DNA of 64,000 nt from Sulfurovum sp. GTDB lineage: Bacteria > Campylobacterota > Campylobacteria > Campylobacterales > Sulfurovaceae. The stretch is taken from the NCBI GenBank assembly GCA_020525365.1, contig JAIZOF010000001.1:464381-528380 (forward strand). The letters run 5' to 3'. This document shows, one piece after another, positions 2,523-58,484 of the stretch (positions are counted from its first letter, which is position 1; every line of letters starts with the position of its first letter). The notes below the pieces were generated by a model that had not been told where the DNA came from, made no database searches, and saw only the letters and a list, made by a program, of their open reading frames with translations. Made by a program: the position numbers and the translations under genes.

Positions 2523-2556
2523 ACACTCAATTGATATTCTATACTATGGACACAAA

Positions 2557-3741
2557 ATGATTGATAAACCCTTACTTATTGCTGTTGTCATGCTTTTAAC
2601 GCTCTCACTTGTGATGGACTACTCTCTTTCTGTCTATACGGTACAGCATTTTGGTTATGGTGACTTTCATTTTTTAATGAGGCAAGGAGCGGCAGTTTTT
2701 CTTAGCCTTACAGTAATAGTTTTTTTGAGTAAATTTAATCCAGATACATGGTTTGTATGGATTGGCTGGGCACTTTTTATTGTATTTTTCCTTTTGATGG
2801 CGATAATGCAGGCTCTTCCTGCATCACTAGTAAGTGAAGTGGGGGGAGCCAAACGTTGGATACATATAGGATCAATATCCATTGCACCTGTTGAATTTTT
2901 TAAAGTCGGTTTTATTTTTTTTCTCTCTTGGAGTTTTACTCGCAAATTCAAACAAAAAGAGAAGATGGGTTTTCAGGAAGAGATAATGATGTTCGCACCT
3001 TATCTGTTTGTTTTCTTTTTTGCGGTAGTACTTATTGCAATTTTTCAAAAGGATCTTGGTCAGGTCATTGTATTGGGTGCAGCTCTCTTAACACTTTTTC
3101 TTTTTGTAGGCAGCTCCTATAAGTTTTTTTTCATGCTGCTCTCTTCAGCTTTTTTGGGAGCTGTGGCACTGATTTTTCTTGCACCACACCGTATGGCACG
3201 TATCAAAAGCTGGTGGATAGGAGTACAAGATACAATACTTTCTCTTTTTCCTTTTGAATCGATACAGAATCTCAGAGTAGAATCAAATGTCAAAGAGCCT
3301 TGGCAGATCTCTAATTCCCTCAATGCAATTCATAATGGGGGTCTTTGGGGACAGGGGCTTGGAAATGGTCAATTTAAGCTAGGGTATCTTTCCGAGGTAC
3401 ATACAGACTTTATTTTGGCAGGCATAACAGAGGAGTTTGGGTTTCTTGGTATGAGTGTTGTAGTGCTGACTATACTTTTTATAATTTTTCGGATTTTTAA
3501 GATTGCTTCAAGGGTTAAAAATCCTATGTACTATCTCTTTTGTATAGGAATAGGCTTGCTTATTACTTTTGCATTTCTTCTTAATGCATACGGTATTGCA
3601 GGAATCACCCCTATAAAAGGGATTGCAGTACCTTTCTTGAGTTATGGAGGTTCACATATACTGGCAACCTCTATTGCTATTGGGATAGTGCTAATGATTT
3701 CAAAAAAAATACCACGTGATATGCATGGTAATATGTTATAG
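2557..3741 (+). CDS. ftsW: FtsW/RodA family peptidoglycan glycosyltransferase
   Basis: SEDS-family membrane enzyme that polymerises lipid II; FtsW works with FtsI at the septum. From ATG 2557 it has 394 residues and about ten hydrophobic segments, with the family signature near the C-terminus (PFLSYGGSHILAT) and the conserved GLWGQGLGNGQFKLGYLSEVHTDF region split between loops. A TTG start at 2479 would add 26 residues that look non-membrane and span a promoter-like box, so the ATG is preferred. murG follows 17 bases later, which supports FtsW rather than RodA. Confidence 0.88.
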   Translation: MIDKPLLIAVVMLLTLSLVMDYSLSVYTVQHFGYGDFHFLMRQGAAVFLSLTVIVFLSKFNPDTWFVWIGWALFIVFFLLMAIMQALPASLVSEVGGAKRWIHIGSISIAPVEFFKVGFIFFLSWSFTRKFKQKEKMGFQEEIMMFAPYLFVFFFAVVLIAIFQKDLGQVIVLGAALLTLFLFVGSSYKFFFMLLSSAFLGAVALIFLAPHRMARIKSWWIGVQDTILSLFPFESIQNLRVESNVKEPWQISNSLNAIHNGGLWGQGLGNGQFKLGYLSEVHTDFILAGITEEFGFLGMSVVVLTILFIIFRIFKIASRVKNPMYYLFCIGIGLLITFAFLLNAYGIAGITPIKGIAVPFLSYGGSHILATSIAIGIVLMISKKIPRDMHGNML

Positions 3742-3758
3742 TTTTTAGGAAGACAAGT

Positions 3759-4838
3759 ATGAGTATAGTGATGACAGGTGGCGGTACTGGTGGACATTTG
3801 GCAATTGTTCAGGCGGTTAAAGAGCAGCTTGCTGACAATATTAGAAAGGGTATTCAGTATGAGGTGCCTCAGGGAGACAAAGCGCTTTTCTCTCCTTTTT
3901 CTCCACTTATTTATATTGGCTCTACTAAAGGACAGGATAAGCAGTGGTTTGAAGATGATGAAGACTTTGATATTAAATATTTTTTTGAAACAGAAGGAGT
4001 GGTTAATCAAAGGGGCATTAGAAAACTGAAATCACTTTGGAAAATGTTTCATGCTGTATATCAGGCACGAAGACTACTTAAAAAACATGATGTTAAAGTA
4101 GTTTTTTCTGTAGGTGGATTTTCTGCTGCAGCAACAGCAATAGCAGCAAAAACACTACGTATTCCATTGGTAATCCATGAACAGAATGCAGCACTTGGAT
4201 CCCTAAACAGATTACTCAAGCCCTATGCCAATGTGTTTATCTCCTCCTATCTTAAGGAGAGTCCTATTAAAGCTTATCCAGTCAAAAAGGTATTTTTTGA
4301 TAATGCCCGTATTAGGAAGACAATTAAAACAATTATTTTTCTTGGTGGCTCACAGGGAGCACGTGCTATTAATACACTAGCACTCTCTATTGCTCCTGAA
4401 CTTAAAAAACACAATATAAAGATTATCCATCAAGCAGGAGTAAATCATATTGATTCTATTCAGAATGCGTATGTTGATCTTGATATTGAAGCAGAAGTTT
4501 TTGGATTTACAACCAAACTTTCTGACTATATGAAAGAGGCAGATTTTGCCATTGCAAGAGCTGGAGCTTCAACACTTTGGGAGTTGGTATCAACCGCATT
4601 ACCGACACTTTTTATTCCTTACCCTTATGCTGTCAGTGATCATCAGTATCACAATGCAAAGTTCCTTGTAGAGAAAAAACTTGCTTGGATGATGCGTGAG
4701 AATGAGATAAGCAAAGAGAAGATACTTTCACTACTTCATGAAAATATTTCAGATAGAAGTAAAGAGTTAATGAAGATTGTTGAGTGTAATGGAAGCCAAA
4801 AGATTGCCACATTGCTACAAACATATACTACAAGATAA
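3759..4838 (+). CDS. murG: UDP-GlcNAc:undecaprenyl-PP-MurNAc-pentapeptide GlcNAc transferase
   Basis: Peripheral inner-membrane glycosyltransferase (GT28) that converts lipid I to lipid II. The 359-residue protein starts SIVMTGGGTGGHLAIV, the donor-side glycine-rich loop, and has the second loop FLGGSQGARAIN near residue 200 and the C-terminal ARAGASTLWELV block with the HQYHNAKFL segment. A ribosome site AGGAAG precedes the ATG. It follows ftsW in one operon, so the flippase-site polymerase and the lipid II synthase are co-expressed. Confidence 0.95.
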   Translation: MSIVMTGGGTGGHLAIVQAVKEQLADNIRKGIQYEVPQGDKALFSPFSPLIYIGSTKGQDKQWFEDDEDFDIKYFFETEGVVNQRGIRKLKSLWKMFHAVYQARRLLKKHDVKVVFSVGGFSAAATAIAAKTLRIPLVIHEQNAALGSLNRLLKPYANVFISSYLKESPIKAYPVKKVFFDNARIRKTIKTIIFLGGSQGARAINTLALSIAPELKKHNIKIIHQAGVNHIDSIQNAYVDLDIEAEVFGFTTKLSDYMKEADFAIARAGASTLWELVSTALPTLFIPYPYAVSDHQYHNAKFLVEKKLAWMMRENEISKEKILSLLHENISDRSKELMKIVECNGSQKIATLLQTYTTR

Positions 4839-4944: not shown

Positions 4945-7521
4945 ATGGATATTAGAAAAACTTTTTTAGATTACTTTGAGAGTAAAGGGCATCAGGTTGT
5001 AGAGAGTTCTCCTTTGGTCCCTGATGACCCAACACTTCTCTTTGTCAATGCAGGAATGGTACAGTTTAAGAATATTTTCACTGGTGAAGCACCCATTCCT
5101 GATTTTCCACGTGCCACCTCTTCACAGACTTGTATTAGGGCAGGTGGAAAACACAATGATCTTGATAATGTCGGTTATACTGCACGTCATCATACCTTCT
5201 TTGAAATGTTAGGAAATTTTAGTTTTGGTAATTACTTTAAAAAAGAGGCAATTGCTTATGCATGGGAGTTTATAACAGGAAAAGAGTACCTTGCATTGCC
5301 TATTGAAAAAATTTGGGTAACCGTTCATGACAGTGATGATGAAGCATATGAGATATGGAAAGAGCATATTGCCAAAGAGCATATTGTCCGTTTTGGTAAC
5401 AAGGATAATTTTTGGCAAATGGGTGATACCGGTCCATGTGGTCCGTGTTCCGAAATATTCTATGATCAAGGAGAAGAGCACTTTAGTTCTCCTGAAGATG
5501 TAATGGGTGGAGAAGGTGACCGTTTTCTTGAGATATGGAATCTTGTCTTTATGCAATATGAGCGTGATGAGAAAGGGAAACTACATCCATTGCCAAGACC
5601 AAGTATTGATACTGGAATGGGATTGGAGCGCGTGGTTGCTATTAAGGAGGGGGTGACTAATAACTATCACTCATCTCTTTTTAAACCATTGCTTGACGCT
5701 ATTGGTGATTTAATAGGAGAACCTTACAACTATGAGTTATCAAATTCAGCAAGTTACCGTGTCATTGCTGACCATCTTCGCTCGGTTAGTTTTTTGCTTG
5801 CACAGGGTATAAATTTTGACAAAGAGGGACGCGGGTATGTGCTTCGTCGTGTCATGCGACGTGCTATTCGTCATGGATATCTTCTGGGATTACGTAAGCC
5901 ATTCATGTATAAGCTTGTCGATACACTTATTGAAGTAATAGGTGGACATTATGCCTATCTTAAGACCAAAAAGGAGGCTATTGAGACCTCAATGAAACTT
6001 GAAGAAGAGCACTTTTTTGATACCATTGAAGCAGGAATTAAACTCTTTAATCAAGAACTTAAGAAAACTACCAACACTTTCAGTGGCGAAGTAGCATTTA
6101 AGCTTTATGATACCTTTGGTTTTCCGCTTGACTTAACAAAAGATATGCTTAGAGAAAAGGGGATTATGCTTGATATCAATACCTTTAATGCGAAGATGGA
6201 AGCACAGAAATTGCAATCTAAAGTGAATTGGAAAGGTACCGGTGATGTAGCAACAATAGGTGATTTCAAGCAGATTAAGGAGAAATTTGGTGTTAATGAA
6301 TTTGTTGGTTATGAAAAAACTGCAATAGCTACAAAAATACTTGTGCTACTCGATAAAAATTTCAAACAGGTTAATACCCTTGATGGTAAAGGTTGGGTAA
6401 TGCTGGAACAAACACCATTCTATGCAGAGTCTGGTGGTCAGGTTGGTGACCATGGGGTCATTAATGTAGTAAACAGTAATGAGCAGGTAGCAGTGAAAGA
6501 TACCAAGAAGTTTTTAGACATAAATTTCTCTGAAGTGGAAGGGAAACTTTCTGTGGAAGATGAGGTACTCGCTACCATTGATCAATCTCGTGTAGAGGTT
6601 GAAAAACACCATTCGGCAACACATTTGTTGCATGCAGCACTTAGAGTGGTATTGGGAGATCATATTTCGCAGGCAGGATCTTTTAATGATGACAAACGTC
6701 TACGTTTTGATTTTTCTCATCCTAAAGCAGTGACAGTTGAGGAGCTACAGAAAGTAGAAGATTGGGTTAATAGCAAAATACAATGTGCCATCCCCCGTAA
6801 AACAGAAATTATGAATATTGATGAAGCAAAAAACTCCAATGCATTGGCACTTTTTGGAGAGAAGTATGGAGAGAAAGTACGTGTAGTTAGTATGGGTGAT
6901 GCCTCTATAGAACTATGTGGAGGGACACACGTCAATAACACTTCCCATATTGGGCTTTTCATGATTACCAAAGAGAGTGGCGTAAGTGCAGGAGTTAGGC
7001 GTATCGAGGCAATTTGTGGTTATGCAGCAATTCAAAAGGTTAAAGAGCTTCGTGTAGAGATTGCAGAGATTAAGAAGGCAGTGAAGAATCAACAACCAAT
7101 TATTGGTATTAGTAAACTTAAAGAGGAGATTAAGACACTTAAAGGTGAGCTCAAGGCGGCACTTAGTTCTTCTAAAAAAGCATTAATACCAGTTGAGTTG
7201 AATGGCATCAATACCATTGTTGATGAGGTAGAAACAGGAGATATCAAGGAGATGATTGATGAAGCTAAGAACAAGTATGACAATATTGCCATTATGCTTT
7301 TTCAGAAAAAAGGTGAGAAGGTATTGCTTGCAGCAGGCTCCAAAGAGACATCAGTGAAGGCAGGTGATTGGATCAAGTCTATAGCGCCAGTTGTTGGCGG
7401 CGGCGGTGGTGGTCGTTCTGACTTTGCACAGGCGGGTGGAAAGAAACCTGAAAATATTACTAAAGCAATCAAAGAGGCGAAAACCTATCTAGCTGAATTA
7501 CTTGAGAGTGGAAATGAATGA
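4945..7521 (+). CDS. alaS: Alanyl-tRNA synthetase
   Basis: Charges tRNA-Ala and edits Ser and Gly mischarging. The 858-residue protein has the class II catalytic core ([13 protein letters not shown], then the [10 protein letters not shown] and TGMGLERVV motifs), the editing domain with [12 protein letters not shown] and CGGTHV zinc ligands, and the C-Ala domain ending in [19 protein letters not shown] at 4924 lies in frame, but the ATG at 4945 has AGGA nine bases upstream and fits family N-termini ([11 protein letters not shown]). It begins a maf-bioF-pbp1a run. Confidence 0.97.
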
Positions 7522-12637: not shown

Positions 12638-14071
12638 TTAGCAAGAGTATGTAGAGACATACTCATATGCAGTTGGTCTTCCTTCTACAGGAATGACGTG
12701 TCTTTCGAATTGATAATCGACATAAGTTTTGATAAATTCTTCATCCATAACAGGCGCAAGGAAGTTATAATCTTTTTCAAGTCCTTCAAGTGCATCTCTA
12801 AAGCTATTTGGAAGTTCGGGAATCTTTCTCTCTTTAAGTTCATCTCTTGTTAACTCAAAAAGGTCTTCATTGAATGGTCCAACAAGATCATACCCACCTT
12901 TTTCGATACCATCAAGACCTGCCATCATAAGAACAGTAAAGGCAAGATATGGGCATGAAGTAGAGTCTGGGAAACGTGTTTCAATACGTGTTGCTTTTTC
13001 GCCCGCACCATAAGGGATACGACATGCAGCTGATCTATTTTGGCTTGAATATGTCAAAATACGTGGTGCTTCAAATCCTGGAAGGAGTCTTTTGTAAGAG
13101 TTGGTAGAAGCATTTGTAAATGCTGCAACCGCCTCTTTATGTGCAAAGATACCACTAAGGTAATCAAGTGCTGTTTTGGAGAGATTTGCATACTCACCCT
13201 CTTTGTAAAAGAGATTTTTGCCATTTTTCCAAAGAGACTGATGTACATGCATACCATTTCCATTATCATTGTAAATAGGTTTAGGCATGAATGTGGCTGT
13301 TTTCCCATTAAGGTGTGCAACCATCTTAACAACATATTTATACTTTTGTACATTATCAGCAGCGGTAATGATGTCAGAGAATACAATACCAATTTCACCC
13401 TGTCCCTGTGCCACTTCGTGGTGTCCAAGCACAACTTCAAGACCTACTTCTTCAAGAAGCAACATCATCTCCGCACGGAGATCTACCATGGAGTCTGTAG
13501 GCATAACTGGGAAATAGCCACCTTTGATTCTTGGTCTATGACCCATATTTCCAATCTCATCATAATCAGCCCCATCAGCCCAGTGACCTTCATCTGTTTC
13601 AACTCTAAAGGATTGGTGGTTGTCTTTGTCTTCAATTTTGACATCATCAAAAATAAAGAACTCATTTTCAGGACCAAAGTATGCTGCATCAGCCACGCCT
13701 TTTTCTTCAAGCACTTTCAGTGCTTTTTTAGCAATAGACCTTGGACATTTTGCATAAAGCTCATTTTTATAGATATCGTAAACATCACAGATAACAATCA
13801 CTGTACTGTCTGCAGTAAATGGATCGAGAAATGCAGTGGGAACATCAGGCTTAAGAAGCATATCTGACTGGTTAATTGGTTGCCAGTTCTCAATAGAGGA
13901 TCCATCGAATGGAAGACCAGCTTCAAGCATACCGTCATCGACAGCACTTCTTTTGTATGTAATGTGGTGCCATGCTCCTTTAATGTCTGTAAACCTAAAG
14001 TCAATGAACTCTACCTCGTTCTCCTTACAGAATGTATTAAATTCTGTTATATTGTTAACAAATTTACCCAT
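12638..14071 (-). CDS. glnA: Glutamine synthetase, type I
   Basis: ATP-dependent synthesis of glutamine from glutamate and ammonia; dodecameric cytoplasmic enzyme. The 477-residue protein shows [10 protein letters not shown], the metal-binding [22 protein letters not shown] and [10 protein letters not shown] motifs. At the usual adenylylation site (NLYDLP in enterics) the sequence reads [11 protein letters not shown], so the modifiable tyrosine is phenylalanine, as I recall for Helicobacter. Control by GlnE is therefore unlikely. A clear AGGAGG ribosome site and a TATAAT box precede it. Confidence 0.96.
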
Positions 14072-29088: not shown

Positions 29089-29151
29089 AAATAGAGCCAA
29101 ATTTTTGGTCTATTTATGACGTTAGGCGTATAACTCAATGTTATGCGCCTA
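29089..29151 (+). terminator. Two consecutive hairpins after the second DUF1566 gene
   Basis: First hairpin: AAATAGA-CCAAA with TTTGG-TCTATTT (29089-29115, one bulge). Second: TAGGCGTATAAC, loop TCAAT, GTTATGCGCCTA (29123-29151, one G-T wobble in 12 bp). The first probably terminates the gene. The second contains GTTAGGC and GTTATGC, sequences resembling integron recombination cores, though it is too short for an attC site. Confidence 0.55.
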
Positions 29152-29299
29152 CATGCTCCATATCCTCTTTTTTACCCTAGTCAATTTTTCATATATAATA
29201 CCTAATTTAATCAAAATCAGATGACATATAGATATATTCAATATTACAGTATCAATTTCCCCAATACAATATCGTACTTAACTTTTTTTAATTCTTTTT

Positions 29300-30410
29300 A
29301 TGTTACTCTACCCCATGTAGATTTGGTGTGACTCTATATATTTTGTAGAATATAGATAAAATGTAAAGTACAACAGATGTCCTTTGCAGTAGTTTTAGCT
29401 TCTGTGAGAGCTTACATGTATGCACTGTGTGTATCTGGCGCTGTGAACACGCAAGGTTTGTGTGGAAGTTTTTATGCGCTATATATAAATTTCATTCATT
29501 CATTGCACTTTACAAGAACAAAGCTGCATGGCAAAATCTCACCAGTCTCTCAAAATCTCACCAGTGAGCCTCCTCTCACTAGTCTCAGTCCTTTCCATTT
29601 TGAAGGTCATGTACAATTCTTTGTATTTCATATGATGTGACTCATTCTCCCAACCTTTAGTCTTATGCTTTAAGTGCTGCTGCAATTCATAATGAATGGA
29701 AGATGAATTCTCTTCAACCAGCTGGCACATATTTACAAAGCACACCTGATATGGGCACTTTATGTTATTGACAAAGTCCTTAATTCTAATCTCAAGTAGT
29801 GAACCTCACCAAAAGTTTGTTTCTTCCTATACTTGTACATGCGCTACTACAGTTGTCTGTCCTAAGCTTTCCAGCTTTTCATTCTCGTGCCATAGAGAAA
29901 AAAATACCCCCATATCCCAACCAAAACAACAGCTGCTGTTCATGACAAAGAACAAGATAAACAATACAAACACACAGAAAACAGACAAATAAAAGTGAGG
30001 AGTTTGGCCACAGCAGATCTCTTTCTCTCTCTTGGCAGTATAATAAGACAGAAGAAAGTATATATATATATAAATGTTAGAGCATAAACTATGTCTAAAA
30101 AATGTTTAGGGATCTGAGTTAGAAATGATGAAGAAACAGACACAAATAAATCAATTCAAACCACGTACCAACAAACTACGTGAGTCCCCAAGCTGTAAAT
30201 GTTAAGTTTTCATCAGCCACTGATGATGTGGCGGATGACAACACATAATCCACTACGCACTCAGGTACGTAGCAGAGTCCAGCACAGCAGGGAGCACCAC
30301 ATTGCCGGGTCAGCCCCAGGGAAGTGTTGGATGCGTCTGTGAACTCATGCTGAATGCTTGTCACTCCTGTAAAGAAAAAGAACTTGGCAGTAGTTTCGAT
30401 GGCACTAAAA
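29300..30410. other. Non-bacterial-looking noncoding DNA, probably eukaryotic
   Basis: About 1.1 kb with no credible bacterial gene. Evidence for eukaryotic origin: a TA-dinucleotide run (30058-30072); TTCATTCATTCATT tetranucleotide repeat (29491-29504); a minus-strand pyrimidine tract and CAG acceptor at 30367 followed by a 63-codon exon-like frame; a 15-bp direct repeat (29532-29546 and 29551-29565); and patchy base composition (a 60-base sample at 30241 is 33/60 GC, one at 30061 is 14/60). Left and right limits are judged by eye. The flanks 29152-29300 and 30410-30582 are AT-rich and hold no gene. Confidence 0.6.
30176..30366 (-). other. Exon-like open segment inside the eukaryote-like island
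   Basis: On the minus strand the sequence TTCTTTTTCTTTACAG ends at 30367, a model 3' splice site. After it only one frame stays open: VTSIQHEFTDASNTS, then a cysteine-rich piece CGAPCCAGLCYVPECVVDY and an ending in TFTAWGLT before TAG. A donor-like GGTACGT lies at about 30163-30169. Upstream of the acceptor the same frame has no ribosome site. I do not recognise the protein family. Confidence 0.4.
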
Positions 30411-30582
30411 GTATGGGATTTAAGGTTTAGTGATATCAAAAAGAATAAAAATAATGATATATTGCTATTAAGGTTTATTGAGGGTAAATAGTATTGAGCA
30501 TACAAATGCTTTATATAAAAAATCTTAAATATAGATTATGTTAAGTATGTAAGTTATTTTGATAGATGAAGGAAGAATATCT

Positions 30583-31341
30583 ATGAATTTTAACTCATTC
30601 TCAATAATAATGATATTTGTATCATTAATTTTAGTAGGCTGTAAATCTGTATGCGATGCTAATTTTTCAACTACATACAATGGCAATAAATATGGATGTG
30701 TTATTAATAACACAACACATAAAGTATGGTTAGATAGAAATCTGGGTGCTACAAGAGTAGCCAGATCTATTACAGATACACTGTCTTATGGTGATTATTT
30801 TCAGTGGGGCAGAAAAGCTGATGGCCATGAAGACAAGACATCAAAAACAACATCAGTTCTAGCAACAACGCTAGAAAACCCAAATAGTAATTTTATTGTA
30901 AGAGCAGTAGATAGTGATTGGGTAGCTGATGGAGTGGATGATAATGGATCAAAAAGAACAGCTTTTCTATTGAAAACTGATGGAAAAGGTATATGCCCTA
31001 ATGGATTTAGGGTACCAACTAGGCAGGAGTGGGAAAATGAATATCATACTTGGAAAAGTAACGATACCGAAGGTGCCTATACTTCGGTATTAAAATTACC
31101 AACATCAGGTATTCGTGTTGCAGAAGCCCAAGGTGCACGTCTAACAGAAATGGGTGAACGTGGTTACTATTGGACATCTGAGTTTGATGAAACAAGGAGA
31201 CTTGCTCGGTATTTTCGTACCACAAGTGGTAAAGGTGTAAATTTTCGTCCAGGTTTTCCTATATATGGATTATCTATCCGCTGCATTAGAAAAAATAGTG
31301 CTACAGCATATGAAATTGCTAAAAATAAATATTTAGAATAA
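30583..31341 (+). CDS. Lipoprotein with FISUMP (Fibrobacter major paralogous) domain
   Basis: A 252-residue protein with a lipoprotein signal (lipobox LVGC, Cys20) and a full FISUMP/TIGR02145-type domain: VWLDRNLGATRVA, GDYFQWGRKADGHE, CPNGFRVPTRQEWENE, LKLPTSGIR, GYYWTSEFDE and the closing SIRCIRKN. This domain is distantly related to DUF1566 and shares its lectin-like fold. The ATG at 30583 follows GAAGGAAG; a TTG eight codons upstream was rejected. It sits beyond the eukaryote-like island but in the same orientation as the DUF1566 genes. Confidence 0.85.
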   Translation: MNFNSFSIIMIFVSLILVGCKSVCDANFSTTYNGNKYGCVINNTTHKVWLDRNLGATRVARSITDTLSYGDYFQWGRKADGHEDKTSKTTSVLATTLENPNSNFIVRAVDSDWVADGVDDNGSKRTAFLLKTDGKGICPNGFRVPTRQEWENEYHTWKSNDTEGAYTSVLKLPTSGIRVAEAQGARLTEMGERGYYWTSEFDETRRLARYFRTTSGKGVNFRPGFPIYGLSIRCIRKNSATAYEIAKNKYLE

Positions 31342-31351
31342 AAACTAGAAG

Positions 31352-31378
31352 GTAGATAGTAATATAATCTACTTTTCT
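31352..31378 (+). terminator. Terminator after the FISUMP lipoprotein gene
   Basis: GTAGAT and ATCTAC (31352-31357, 31367-31372) form a stem with a 9-base AT loop followed by TTTTCT. A wider GGTAG/CTACC pairing competes with it. From here to 31612 the sequence is AT-rich and holds only promoter-like tracts (TTATAAATTT near 31548). Confidence 0.6.
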
Positions 31379-53855: not shown

Positions 53856-53932
53856 GCACTCTTAGCTTAGCTGGATAGAGCATCGGTTTGCGGTACCGAA
53901 GGTCACAGGTTCGAATCCTGTAGAGTGTACCA
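53856..53932 (+). tRNA. tRNA-Arg, anticodon GCG, with encoded CCA
   Basis: Seven-base acceptor stem GCACTCT/AGAGTGT (first pair G1-U72), D arm GCTT...GAGC, anticodon stem TCGGT/ACCGA with loop TTGCGGT (anticodon GCG, reads CGC and CGU), 5-base variable loop, T arm ACAGG-TTCGAAT-CCTGT, discriminator A and CCA. All arms pair. Arg is the cognate amino acid of GCG. Confidence 0.93.
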
Positions 53933-53997: not shown

Positions 53998-54486
53998 ATG
54001 AATATTCTCTTGATCAATACTAATCCTGTAGTTTCACGCCTCATTTCACTCTGTACACACAACGATAAATCCATTGTTTTTGAAGAGATAATGGATGTAA
54101 CCGAAGCATCAGAAAATACATATGATATTATATTTGTTGATCATGCTTCTTATGATGACCAAGTAGTATTTTTAGACCAGATTGCCAATATTGGAAAGCT
54201 AGTATTTCTGTCGAGTTATGATACTGATGAAGAGGTAGCTAAAAAGTTTGATATTGTAGTTAAAAAACCTTTTTTACCTTCCCAAATACAGGCTATTGTA
54301 GACCAAGTTAAAACAGAAACTCCTTTAACAGAAGAAGAGCTCGCACTTCTTGAGGTAGAAGATTTAAATGAGATTATTTCAGAGAATACACCGGATATAG
54401 AATGTTGTCTCCTACTTTCAGTGGTTCAGTCTCCTGTAGTTTTGCCTCTTCCAGCTTCACCTGTTTACGCTTATGTGCCTCGTTGA
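53998..54486 (+). CDS. Receiver-like protein, C-terminus lost at a junction
   Basis: The N-terminal part (residues 1-110) looks like a degenerate response-regulator receiver: MNILLINTNPVVSRLI, DIIFVDHASYDDQ, LVFLSSYDTDEEVAKKFDIVVKKPFLPSQI (in pieces, with the Asp and Lys positions). An acidic linker follows. After about residue 135 (ENTPDIE) the frame reads antisense into mutS2 and gives CCLLLSVVQSP..., which is not believable protein. The real gene was cut near 54400. The ATG at 53998 is chosen over the track's longer start because it begins the beta-strand. Confidence 0.6.
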   Translation: MNILLINTNPVVSRLISLCTHNDKSIVFEEIMDVTEASENTYDIIFVDHASYDDQVVFLDQIANIGKLVFLSSYDTDEEVAKKFDIVVKKPFLPSQIQAIVDQVKTETPLTEEELALLEVEDLNEIISENTPDIECCLLLSVVQSPVVLPLPASPVYAYVPR

Positions 54487-56212
54487 GCAATCTATGCCCT
54501 TCACCAAGCTCTTTGACCTTAAGCACTTCACGTGCCTTTTTGGTCGCAGCATTATAACGATTTTCCAGTGTTGCCAGTGTTTTTCGGTGTTGCTCTTTCA
54601 GGGAAGCTTCTTCATCAAGAAGCTTTTGCTTCTGTTTTTCAATGGCTTTAAGTTCATGGTCTACCTGTCCAATCTTTTGTCGCATTTCTCGCTCTAAAGA
54701 GGTAGATCTCTCTATGAGATCATTGAGATTCTCTTTGTCCTCACCATAAACTTTTTTTGCCTCCTGTATAATGGCAGGAGGAACCCCATAGCGCTGCGCT
54801 GTCTCAAATGCATAACTCTTCCCAATACTCCCCTGCAAAAAAGTATAGGTAGGTACACGTTGCTCTTCATCATAGAGTGCGGCAACCAGTTCTACATCAT
54901 CACTACTTGCCATCAAAGAGGCCAGACGTTTATGGTGGGTTGTAACTACAAAACTGATACCACGATTTTTTAATGTCTCAAGCATCACACGAAAGAGTGA
55001 TGCCGCTTCATCCGAGTCTGTTCCAAGCTCAATTTCATCAACCCCAACAATGGCATCACTCTTGGTAAAAAGTCTAGCAAACTCCTGCATGCGCCCTGCA
55101 AAAGTGGAGATGTCATTCTTCACCGACTGCGGATCATCAATAACAGCCTCAATACTCTTGTAGTGCCCCACTTTTGTACGTGTTGCATCACACTTAAAAG
55201 GCAGTAGATACTTACTCATGTAGACTGCCGAGAGGACTGATTTAAGCAGCATAGTCTTTCCTCCGGCATTCACCCCTGTGATTAAAAAAATTGGTTTGGA
55301 CATATCGATACTAACAGGTACAGGATTCTCAATAGCAGGGTGAATAAAGTTGTGCAAGATAACTTGCTTGCCTTTGCTTGGTAGAATAAACTCATACTCC
55401 ATCATACGGGCAAAACTAACCCTTGCTTGATAATGGTCAAATCGATCGTAGGCTTTGTTGATAAATGAGAGAAAGCGCTCCCATTGATGAAATATTTCAG
55501 AAATCTGCTTGCAGTAGCGCCAAATCAGTTCCGAACGGCTACTTAAGAGTGCTGCCTCTTTCTCTTTAAGATGAGAAATATGTTGGGGGATAACATAAAA
55601 AAAGCCACCAGATGATCGCCCTACTACCGTTGCTTTAAGTGCATGATTGAACCCGCCACGCACCAAAAGAGTCTCTTCTCCACTATGAAAATGTACTTGT
55701 GTATCGACCAAATAGTCACGAAGTTTAGTAGAGTGCGTCAGACGATAAAGGGTCTCCTTGATCTCCCCCTTATTATGCTTAATAGCACGCTCTAAACTCA
55801 TTAGCTCTGTATCGCGCTCTGGGTTAATCTTCCCCTCATCGGTAAAATACCCCAATGTCTCCATGATTGCTTCAGGAATTTCTATTTCACCTATCCAGCT
55901 GCCTACTGGCTCTGGCAGACTTGACGCCTTGAGGCGGTTAAAGTAACCAATCATCACTACAAATGCATAAATCTCTTCTAGAGCCAAAACCCCCTGTTTT
56001 TTAATGAGATTGAGCTCTTTATCAAGATTGGGAATCTCTTGGGGAACAGGAAACTGAACAGACGAAAGTGCCTTGATGTAACGAAAATGTTGGTTAATAT
56101 CTCCTTCCATTGCAACCGATTTGTCTCGAGAAAGGAACTGTTTAAACTGGAAAATATAACCCTCTAAATCCAGTTTTTGTATGATTGGCTTTTCTTGGTT
56201 CCCTTGTGGCAC
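54374..56212 (-). CDS. mutS2: MutS2 ATPase, C-terminally truncated
   Basis: MutS2 acts on branched DNA or collided ribosomes. The 612 residues align with Campylobacter MutS2 from the N-terminus through Walker A (GVNAGGKTMLLKS), the NDISTFAGRM signature, Walker B (VDEIELGTD) and the following coiled coil. They stop at KVGDNILYPVYSLK, just where the linker to the Smr nuclease domain should begin. About 110-120 residues are missing. The last few codons are read from the flanking DNA. GC is higher than in neighbours (about 47% in a 60-base sample). Confidence 0.85.
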   Translation of the reverse strand: MPQGNQEKPIIQKLDLEGYIFQFKQFLSRDKSVAMEGDINQHFRYIKALSSVQFPVPQEIPNLDKELNLIKKQGVLALEEIYAFVVMIGYFNRLKASSLPEPVGSWIGEIEIPEAIMETLGYFTDEGKINPERDTELMSLERAIKHNKGEIKETLYRLTHSTKLRDYLVDTQVHFHSGEETLLVRGGFNHALKATVVGRSSGGFFYVIPQHISHLKEKEAALLSSRSELIWRYCKQISEIFHQWERFLSFINKAYDRFDHYQARVSFARMMEYEFILPSKGKQVILHNFIHPAIENPVPVSIDMSKPIFLITGVNAGGKTMLLKSVLSAVYMSKYLLPFKCDATRTKVGHYKSIEAVIDDPQSVKNDISTFAGRMQEFARLFTKSDAIVGVDEIELGTDSDEAASLFRVMLETLKNRGISFVVTTHHKRLASLMASSDDVELVAALYDEEQRVPTYTFLQGSIGKSYAFETAQRYGVPPAIIQEAKKVYGEDKENLNDLIERSTSLEREMRQKIGQVDHELKAIEKQKQKLLDEEASLKEQHRKTLATLENRYNAATKKAREVLKVKELGEGHRLLNEAHKRKQVKLEEAKLQETEPLKVGDNILYPVYSLK

Positions 56213-56735
56213 ATTTTATCCTTTCATTTTGAGAAAATGTAACTATCTATTTTAGCTATATGAAAGATAATACTTTAAATCTCGCCCCGTATCTGATAGG
56301 TGACATCTCCTGCACCAAATGCTGCTACAAGTCCTTCTGAATATTGGCGTATCACTTTGCCATCTTTAAGCACCTTAACCACACTATCCTCTCTGGTAAC
56401 AGTATCTGCCATGAGTAACTCATAGCGACTAAATGCGCCCTTAAGATCAATATCTATCGATAGTTCACCTGCTGACCATATGGGCAGAATAACCAGTTCA
56501 TCTACTCCCTCAAAACACTCAACAAAGCCATGCAGATTATCGATCGTACGAGAGTACTTGTGCGGTTGCCAAATCACACTGAGTGTATGAAAACCTTGTA
56601 GTTTTTTATAGACCTGAAGAGAGTGCATTGTTGCTTTAATCTCGGTGGGGTGATGTCCATAATCGTCTATAACTACTATCTGTTTCTGATTTTGGATAAT
56701 ATCAAAACGTTTTTTAACCCCTTTGTAGCATATCA
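54400..56735. other. GC-richer block with both edges inside genes
   Basis: The block carries mutS2 without its end and murC without its beginning, in the natural murC-mutS2 order on the minus strand. Sampled GC is 28/60 at 54481 and 29/60 at 55501, against 19/60 at 54061 and 20/60 at 57541. At the left edge it also interrupts a receiver-like gene. I see no inverted repeats, target duplication or integrase at either edge. It is either a fragment from another strain or species, or an assembly misjoin. Confidence 0.65.
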
Positions 56736-56736
56736 A
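56275..56736 (-). pseudogene. murC: MurC C-terminal fragment (UDP-MurNAc-L-alanine ligase)
   Basis: 153 codons from a TTG at 56736. YKGVKKRFDI and VVIDDYGHHPTEIKATM mark the junction to the MurC C-terminal domain, followed by WQPHKYSRTIDNLHGF, ELVILPIWSAGE and LVAAFGAGDVTYQIRGEI. Complete MurC has about 430-450 residues; the UDP-binding and ATPase domains are absent, so this cannot be functional. The frame upstream meets TAA within four codons. The break lies near 56730. Confidence 0.85.
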
Positions 56737-56786
56737 CTTATGTACTTATCCAGATATAACTACCCTACCAGATTGATGGAATATCT

Positions 56787-58484
56787 ATGAAATTAAAAGA
56801 AGAAGTTAATAGAATTATACATATTGCTTTTAAAAATGCAGGTATTGAGATAACTCCTATTTCTGTTTCTGAGGCAACTAAACCAGAATTTGGAGATTTT
56901 CAGTTTAATGGGGCAATGGCACTTGCCAAGCCATTAAAGCAAAATCCATATCAGATTGCACAATCTATTGTAAAGAATCTTGATCTTTCAGGAGCAATAA
57001 GTAAAGCAGAGATTGCGGGACCAGGATTTATTAATTTATGGTTGAATGATGAGTGGATTGCAAGTGAGTGTGAAAAAGTTGACAAAGATAAGCGTTTAGG
57101 AGTGAATAGACGAGAGATTCCTATTAAAGTGGTAGTAGACTATTCTGGTCCAAATATGGCAAAGCAGATGCATGTGGGACACTTACGCTCAACCATCATT
57201 GGAGATACACTTTCTAATTTACTGGACTTCCTTGGCGATGAAGTGATACGCCAAAACCATATTGGTGACTGGGGAACACAATTTGGAATGCTGATTGCTT
57301 ATCTTGAAGAGACAGGCGAGGATGGTGATGGAACCCTGAGGGATTTGGAACAGTTTTACAAGGATGCTAAAACACGTTTTGATACTGATATTGAATTTGC
57401 TAATAAATCACGTAAATATGTAGTAAAGATACAAAGTGGTGACACGCATTGCCTGACACTTTGGAAAAAGTTTATTGATATCTCTCTTGGACACTGTGAA
57501 GAGGTATATAAAAAACTTGATATTAATTTAACTCGAGATAATGTACGGGCAGAAAGTTTTTATAATGAATTGCTAGCAATAGTAGTAGCCAATCTTGATA
57601 AATCTGGTCTACTTAGAGAGAGTGATGGTGCGCAATGTGTTTTTCTCAAAGAAGATGAGGTTCCAGTTATTGTGCAAAAACGTGATGGTGGCTATCTTTA
57701 TGCTACAACAGATCTTGCAGCACTCTATTATCGTGCCAATACACTTGGTGCTATGCGTATTAGTTATGTAGTTGATGCTCGTCAAAGTGAGCATTTCAAA
57801 CAGATATTTCGTGTGGCAAAAGAGGCAGGGTTTGTGCCTGAAGGTATTAGGTTAGAGCATATTGCGTTTGGTACCATGATGGATAAAAGCGGTAAGCCAT
57901 TTAAAACACGTGATGGTGGTACGATTAAACTGATTGACCTGCTTGATGAAGCAGTAGTGCGGGCAAAAGAAGCTATTACAGCTAAAGATACTTATAGTCA
58001 AGAGGAGCTTGAACATACAGCAAAGATTATTGGTATTGGAGCAGTCAAGTATGCTGACTTGGCAATCAATCGTGAGTCAAACTATATTTTTAATTGGGAC
58101 AAAATGCTCTCTTTTGAGGGGAACACCTCTCTCTATATGCAGTATGCCTATGCCCGTATTCAGAGTATTTTTCGAAAATATGGACAAAAGCCAAAAGGAA
58201 AGATTATTATAACGGATATACTTGAGCATCGTTTAGCAGTTATGTTGTTACATTTTGAAGATATACTTTTAAGGGCAGCAGAAGATACTGCTCCTAGCCA
58301 GATTACAACATACTTATATGAGCTTGTAACACTTTTTATGCGTTTTTATGAACATAATCCTATACTTAAAGAGGGGATCAAAGAAGACATAAAGCAATCA
58401 CGGCTTCTGTTGGCAGGATTGACTGCCAAGACTATTAAGCAGGGTCTAGATATTTTGGGTATACAAGTTGTTGATAAGCTGTAG
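56787..58484 (+). CDS. argS: Arginyl-tRNA synthetase
   Basis: Class I synthetase of 565 residues. N-terminal Arg-tRNA D-loop domain, HVGHLRSTIIGDTL (HIGH), GDWGTQFGMLI, the KMSK-equivalent MDKSGKPFKTRDGG, and the DALR-type anticodon-binding C-terminus. Gene intact; the right edge of the GC-rich block ends about 50 bases before its ATG. tRNA-Arg(GCG) lies on the other side of that block. Confidence 0.96.
   Translation: MKLKEEVNRIIHIAFKNAGIEITPISVSEATKPEFGDFQFNGAMALAKPLKQNPYQIAQSIVKNLDLSGAISKAEIAGPGFINLWLNDEWIASECEKVDKDKRLGVNRREIPIKVVVDYSGPNMAKQMHVGHLRSTIIGDTLSNLLDFLGDEVIRQNHIGDWGTQFGMLIAYLEETGEDGDGTLRDLEQFYKDAKTRFDTDIEFANKSRKYVVKIQSGDTHCLTLWKKFIDISLGHCEEVYKKLDINLTRDNVRAESFYNELLAIVVANLDKSGLLRESDGAQCVFLKEDEVPVIVQKRDGGYLYATTDLAALYYRANTLGAMRISYVVDARQSEHFKQIFRVAKEAGFVPEGIRLEHIAFGTMMDKSGKPFKTRDGGTIKLIDLLDEAVVRAKEAITAKDTYSQEELEHTAKIIGIGAVKYADLAINRESNYIFNWDKMLSFEGNTSLYMQYAYARIQSIFRKYGQKPKGKIIITDILEHRLAVMLLHFEDILLRAAEDTAPSQITTYLYELVTLFMRFYEHNPILKEGIKEDIKQSRLLLAGLTAKTIKQGLDILGIQVVDKL

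Follow-up and report, generated by a model that had tools for sequence, protein, structure and literature searches.

How does a stretch that carries only parts of mutS2 and murC come to lie next to argS in a Sulfurovum genome, with a truncated receiver-like gene on its other side? The question arose in a window of 64,000 nucleotides, the whole stretch of DNA analysed here, in which a preliminary description had placed a GC-rich block at 54400-56735 that cuts murC, mutS2 and a receiver gene. Open reading frames and domain matches confirmed that the block cuts these three genes and that its ends lie inside or beside genes. The coordinates proved to be within a few bases of the measured ones, 54402-56728 (2327 bp), with the 5' half of the receiver-like gene on the left and argS on the right. 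The features of the site are as follows.

53856..53932, plus strand: tRNA-Arg(gcg), native left flank
53998..54401, plus strand: 5' part of the receiver-like gene, about 134 codons, cut by the block (by comparison with the proteins of relatives)
54402..56728, no strand assigned: exact copy of C1:1399039-1401365, identical over 2327 bp without gaps
54402..56212, minus strand: mutS2 lacking its 3' end and with it the Smr domain (by comparison with the intact 731-aa copy)
56275..56728, minus strand: 3'-terminal third of murC, encoding only the C-terminal ligase domain (TIGR01082 positions 301-446 of 449)
56729..56786, plus strand: remaining native sequence upstream of argS, 58 bp
56787..58484, plus strand: argS, intact, native right flank

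The receiver-like frame opens with an ATG at 53998 and is cut after codon ~134 of ~275-293. The protein of close relatives has 274-293 aa and starts with MNILLxNTNPVVSRL; the window holds its N-terminal half only. It gave no Pfam match, and "receiver" is a label taken over from the preliminary description and retained for convenience. Inside the block, mutS2 reads through for 612 aa compared with 731 aa in the intact gene, its C-terminal Smr part being gone, and murC retains the C-terminal ~150 of 444 aa.

Duplicates of the block were sought in the genome using chosen queries. All 2327 of 2327 bases were found again at C1:1399039-1401365 of the same genome, about 880 kb away. This donor site holds both genes side by side and in full: mutS2 encodes 731 aa, including the Smr and MSSS domains, and murC encodes 444 aa, including all three Mur ligase domains. 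Thus both the full murC and the second mutS2 for which a check had been proposed are present, and the essential murC is not lacking, since the donor locus supplies the 444-aa copy. The natural mutS2-murC gene order noted earlier is likewise real, the block being a continuous copy of that locus. Its GC content had been overestimated at 47-48%; the measured mean is 41.8% and the maximum over 300 bp is 45.0%. The flanks lie lower, at ~32-35%, and native genes at other positions of the window reach 43-44% (at 60.1 kb). Because the block is identical to the native mutS2-murC locus, its GC contrast is that of native genes.

The two junctions were compared with the donor. On the left, the window reads GGATATAGA followed by ATGTTGTC, whereas at the donor site ATGTTGTC is preceded by GTACTTG. 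On the right, TTTGTAG is followed by CATATC in the window and by TGGCGT at the donor site. The flanks of donor and recipient have no sequence in common at either end. We found no target-site duplication and no inverted or terminal repeat at the block ends, and no IS, transposase, integrase or other mobile gene in the block or at its ends. Insertion of a mobile element was rejected on these grounds. The dead gene fragments of the block have not acquired a single substitution relative to the donor.

The content expected at this site was taken from relatives. The best argS relatives were Sulfurovum MAGs and isolates, which places the window in Sulfurovum. In relatives the gene order is receiver, gmk (guanylate kinase), tatA, argS. 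We examined 80 argS loci, from the genus and from its neighbours. In 74 of them gmk precedes argS, at about -660 to -1205, and in the remaining six the contig breaks off within 400 bp of argS on the upstream side. Neither mutS2 nor murC occurs near argS in any of the 80. The window thus lacks gmk and tatA altogether, the second half of the receiver gene and most of the spacer between tatA and argS, a stretch of ~1.5 kb by comparison with the relative G016, and has the 2327-bp copy in its stead.

The missing genes were then searched for in the whole assembly. A profile search found no gmk. A protein search at E<=10 found none either and returned only weak partial matches, the best of which (17.7 bits) covered a partial N-terminal stretch. 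A relocated gmk was therefore rejected. When the receiver-gmk-tatA DNA of G016 was searched against the assembly, it matched only the remaining receiver part. For tatA, the sole TatA/B match above threshold is tatB, just ahead of an intact tatC; tatA is absent, and tatB and tatC are intact despite this. Of 61 genus genomes searched, the present one included, gmk was found in 59; G011 (94% completeness, ~220 contigs) likewise gave no match. In Bacillus subtilis gmk is described as essential, and its full inactivation is lethal (PMC11980595). The preliminary description had reasoned that there must be an intact murC elsewhere or an error in the assembly. Each of these holds: the copy was found, and the assembly is very probably wrong at this site because gmk and tatA, which belong here, are missing from all of it.

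Other defects were found in the same assembly, which consists of one 1.458-Mb contig and one 7.7-kb contig. A third, inverted copy of mutS2 lies at C1:1386531-1388823 (2532-4824 of locus L012) and is 92% identical to the intact one. It differs by 60 mismatches, spread over all codon positions, and by 82 indel events, mostly of one or two bases; 33 of the 43 deletions fall in homopolymeric runs of at least two bases. Judged by this error spectrum, the copy has the profile of raw long reads and not that of an ageing pseudogene. At this place the open frames are disrupted for ~8 kb, up to about C1:1394.9 kb. In the window itself, the 988 bp at 30374-31361 repeat the contig's own end, C1:2-989, exactly and in reverse orientation. 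The ~1.2 kb before 30374 (from 29100) look non-bacterial, with no long ORFs and a short TA-repeat. Together, 29100-31361 is a probable second misjoin in the window, and the natural neighbour of position 31361 may be the contig start. The contig ends do not overlap and give no evidence of a closed chromosome. The second contig (G000:C2, L013 1-7717) appears eukaryotic and may be host DNA; it contains long masked stretches and a minisatellite-like repeat. This suggests that the sample was animal tissue and that the bacterium is host-associated. The second contig matches neither the window nor the donor region.

Based on these observations, the block is very probably an assembly artefact, in which a gap at gmk-tatA was wrongly filled with mutS2-murC sequence. 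In the true chromosome, the most likely order is tRNA-Arg, full receiver gene, gmk, tatA, argS, which all comparable relatives share. The assembly would have lost ~1.5 kb at gmk-tatA, and the gap or weak join would have been filled with an unchanged 2327-bp copy of the mutS2-murC locus. We infer that the fill arose when the gap was closed wrongly or that it came from a chimeric long read; from the sequence alone, a gap closer, a chimeric long read and manual finishing are all candidate steps. A wrong fill explains the exact copy, the missing gmk-tatA and the other defects most economically. Against it counts that an exact fill from the donor requires two false junctions. In addition, the block is free of raw-read errors, unlike the inverted mutS2 copy, and must therefore have undergone polishing or come from accurate sequence. 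That G011, too, gave no gmk match also counts against it. As expected for a false duplication, there is an exact extra copy, native content is missing at the site and assembly-wide, and the same contig carries other defects. False duplications described previously also consist of exact or error-laden extra copies of loci in one assembly, and incorrect gap filling and copies of raw-read quality are among their described signs and sources (PMC9516828). In contrast to the present case, those assemblies are of diploid vertebrates and the copies are mostly haplotype copies; here the genome is bacterial and the copy replaces other genes.

A real event would require that gmk lies in unassembled DNA or has truly been lost. 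A real and very recent replacement was considered as the main alternative. It would have been an illegitimate or transformation-type recombination in which a copy of mutS2-murC replaced gmk-tatA, both genes persisting in DNA that was not assembled, for example beyond the contig ends. Illegitimate recombination or segmental duplication in bacteria could place a fragment of partial genes at an ectopic site, and the contig ends without overlap would leave room for the missing genes. The donor flanks, unrelated to the recipient flanks at both ends, are also what a double illegitimate joining would leave. However, the block has no homologous anchor at either end, and such an event would remove an essential gene of which the assembly contains no other copy. 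Moreover, gmk must then have moved to a site seen in no relative and been missed by an assembly listed as 99.86% complete. The ends show neither an IS or integrase nor a target-site duplication or inverted repeat, and the dead fragments have no substitution; this too speaks against the alternative, which we regard as unlikely. An assembly error is preferred over recombination because an exact self copy occupies the site of an essential gene that is missing assembly-wide.

A true loss of gmk and tatA, tolerated by a host-associated Sulfurovum with a reduced genome that makes GDP otherwise, would agree with the small genome (1.47 Mb, compared with mostly 1.8-2.6 Mb for more complete relatives) and with the host association that the animal-like second contig suggests. 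It is very improbable, as gmk is nearly universal in the genus, tatB and tatC are still intact without tatA, and clear artefacts occur in the same assembly. A nucleotide transporter of the TLC type (PF03219) could bypass gmk by import, but none was found in the genome, so this route was rejected. It is just as hard to believe that fresh mutS2-murC fragments truly took the place of gmk and tatA in a living, host-associated Sulfurovum that either can do without guanylate kinase or has an unknown enzyme in its stead. Finally, the preliminary description had also considered a real insertion of a GC-different fragment; acquisition of foreign GC-rich DNA by horizontal transfer, for which only the GC above the immediate flanks would speak, has practically no probability left and is refuted by the exact identity to the native locus, since the block is self DNA with the genus's own mutS2-murC genes, is not foreign in composition and bears no mark of a mobile element at either end.

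Thus the block is almost certainly not a real genomic feature. With a listed completeness of 99.86%, the assembly appears to lack guanylate kinase and TatA, and its extra copies of mutS2 and murC appear to be false. An uncritical reading would suggest that a reduced, possibly symbiotic genome had lost an essential gene and expanded mutS2. Completeness scores need not detect local replacements of this kind.

Two groups of repeated genes were observed in addition. Two inverted genes of the PF00144 beta-lactamase family, 75% identical, lie at L012 6689-8260 and 11259-12794; one is intact (591 aa) and one is broken. AT-rich repeats flank them at 4995-6257 and 13626-13932. Lipoprotein-like genes with a Fib_succ_major domain (PF09603) occur in several dispersed copies, ~67-69% identical, that cluster near both contig ends, at window positions 30559-31341, L125 22-804 and C1:1424733-1454674.
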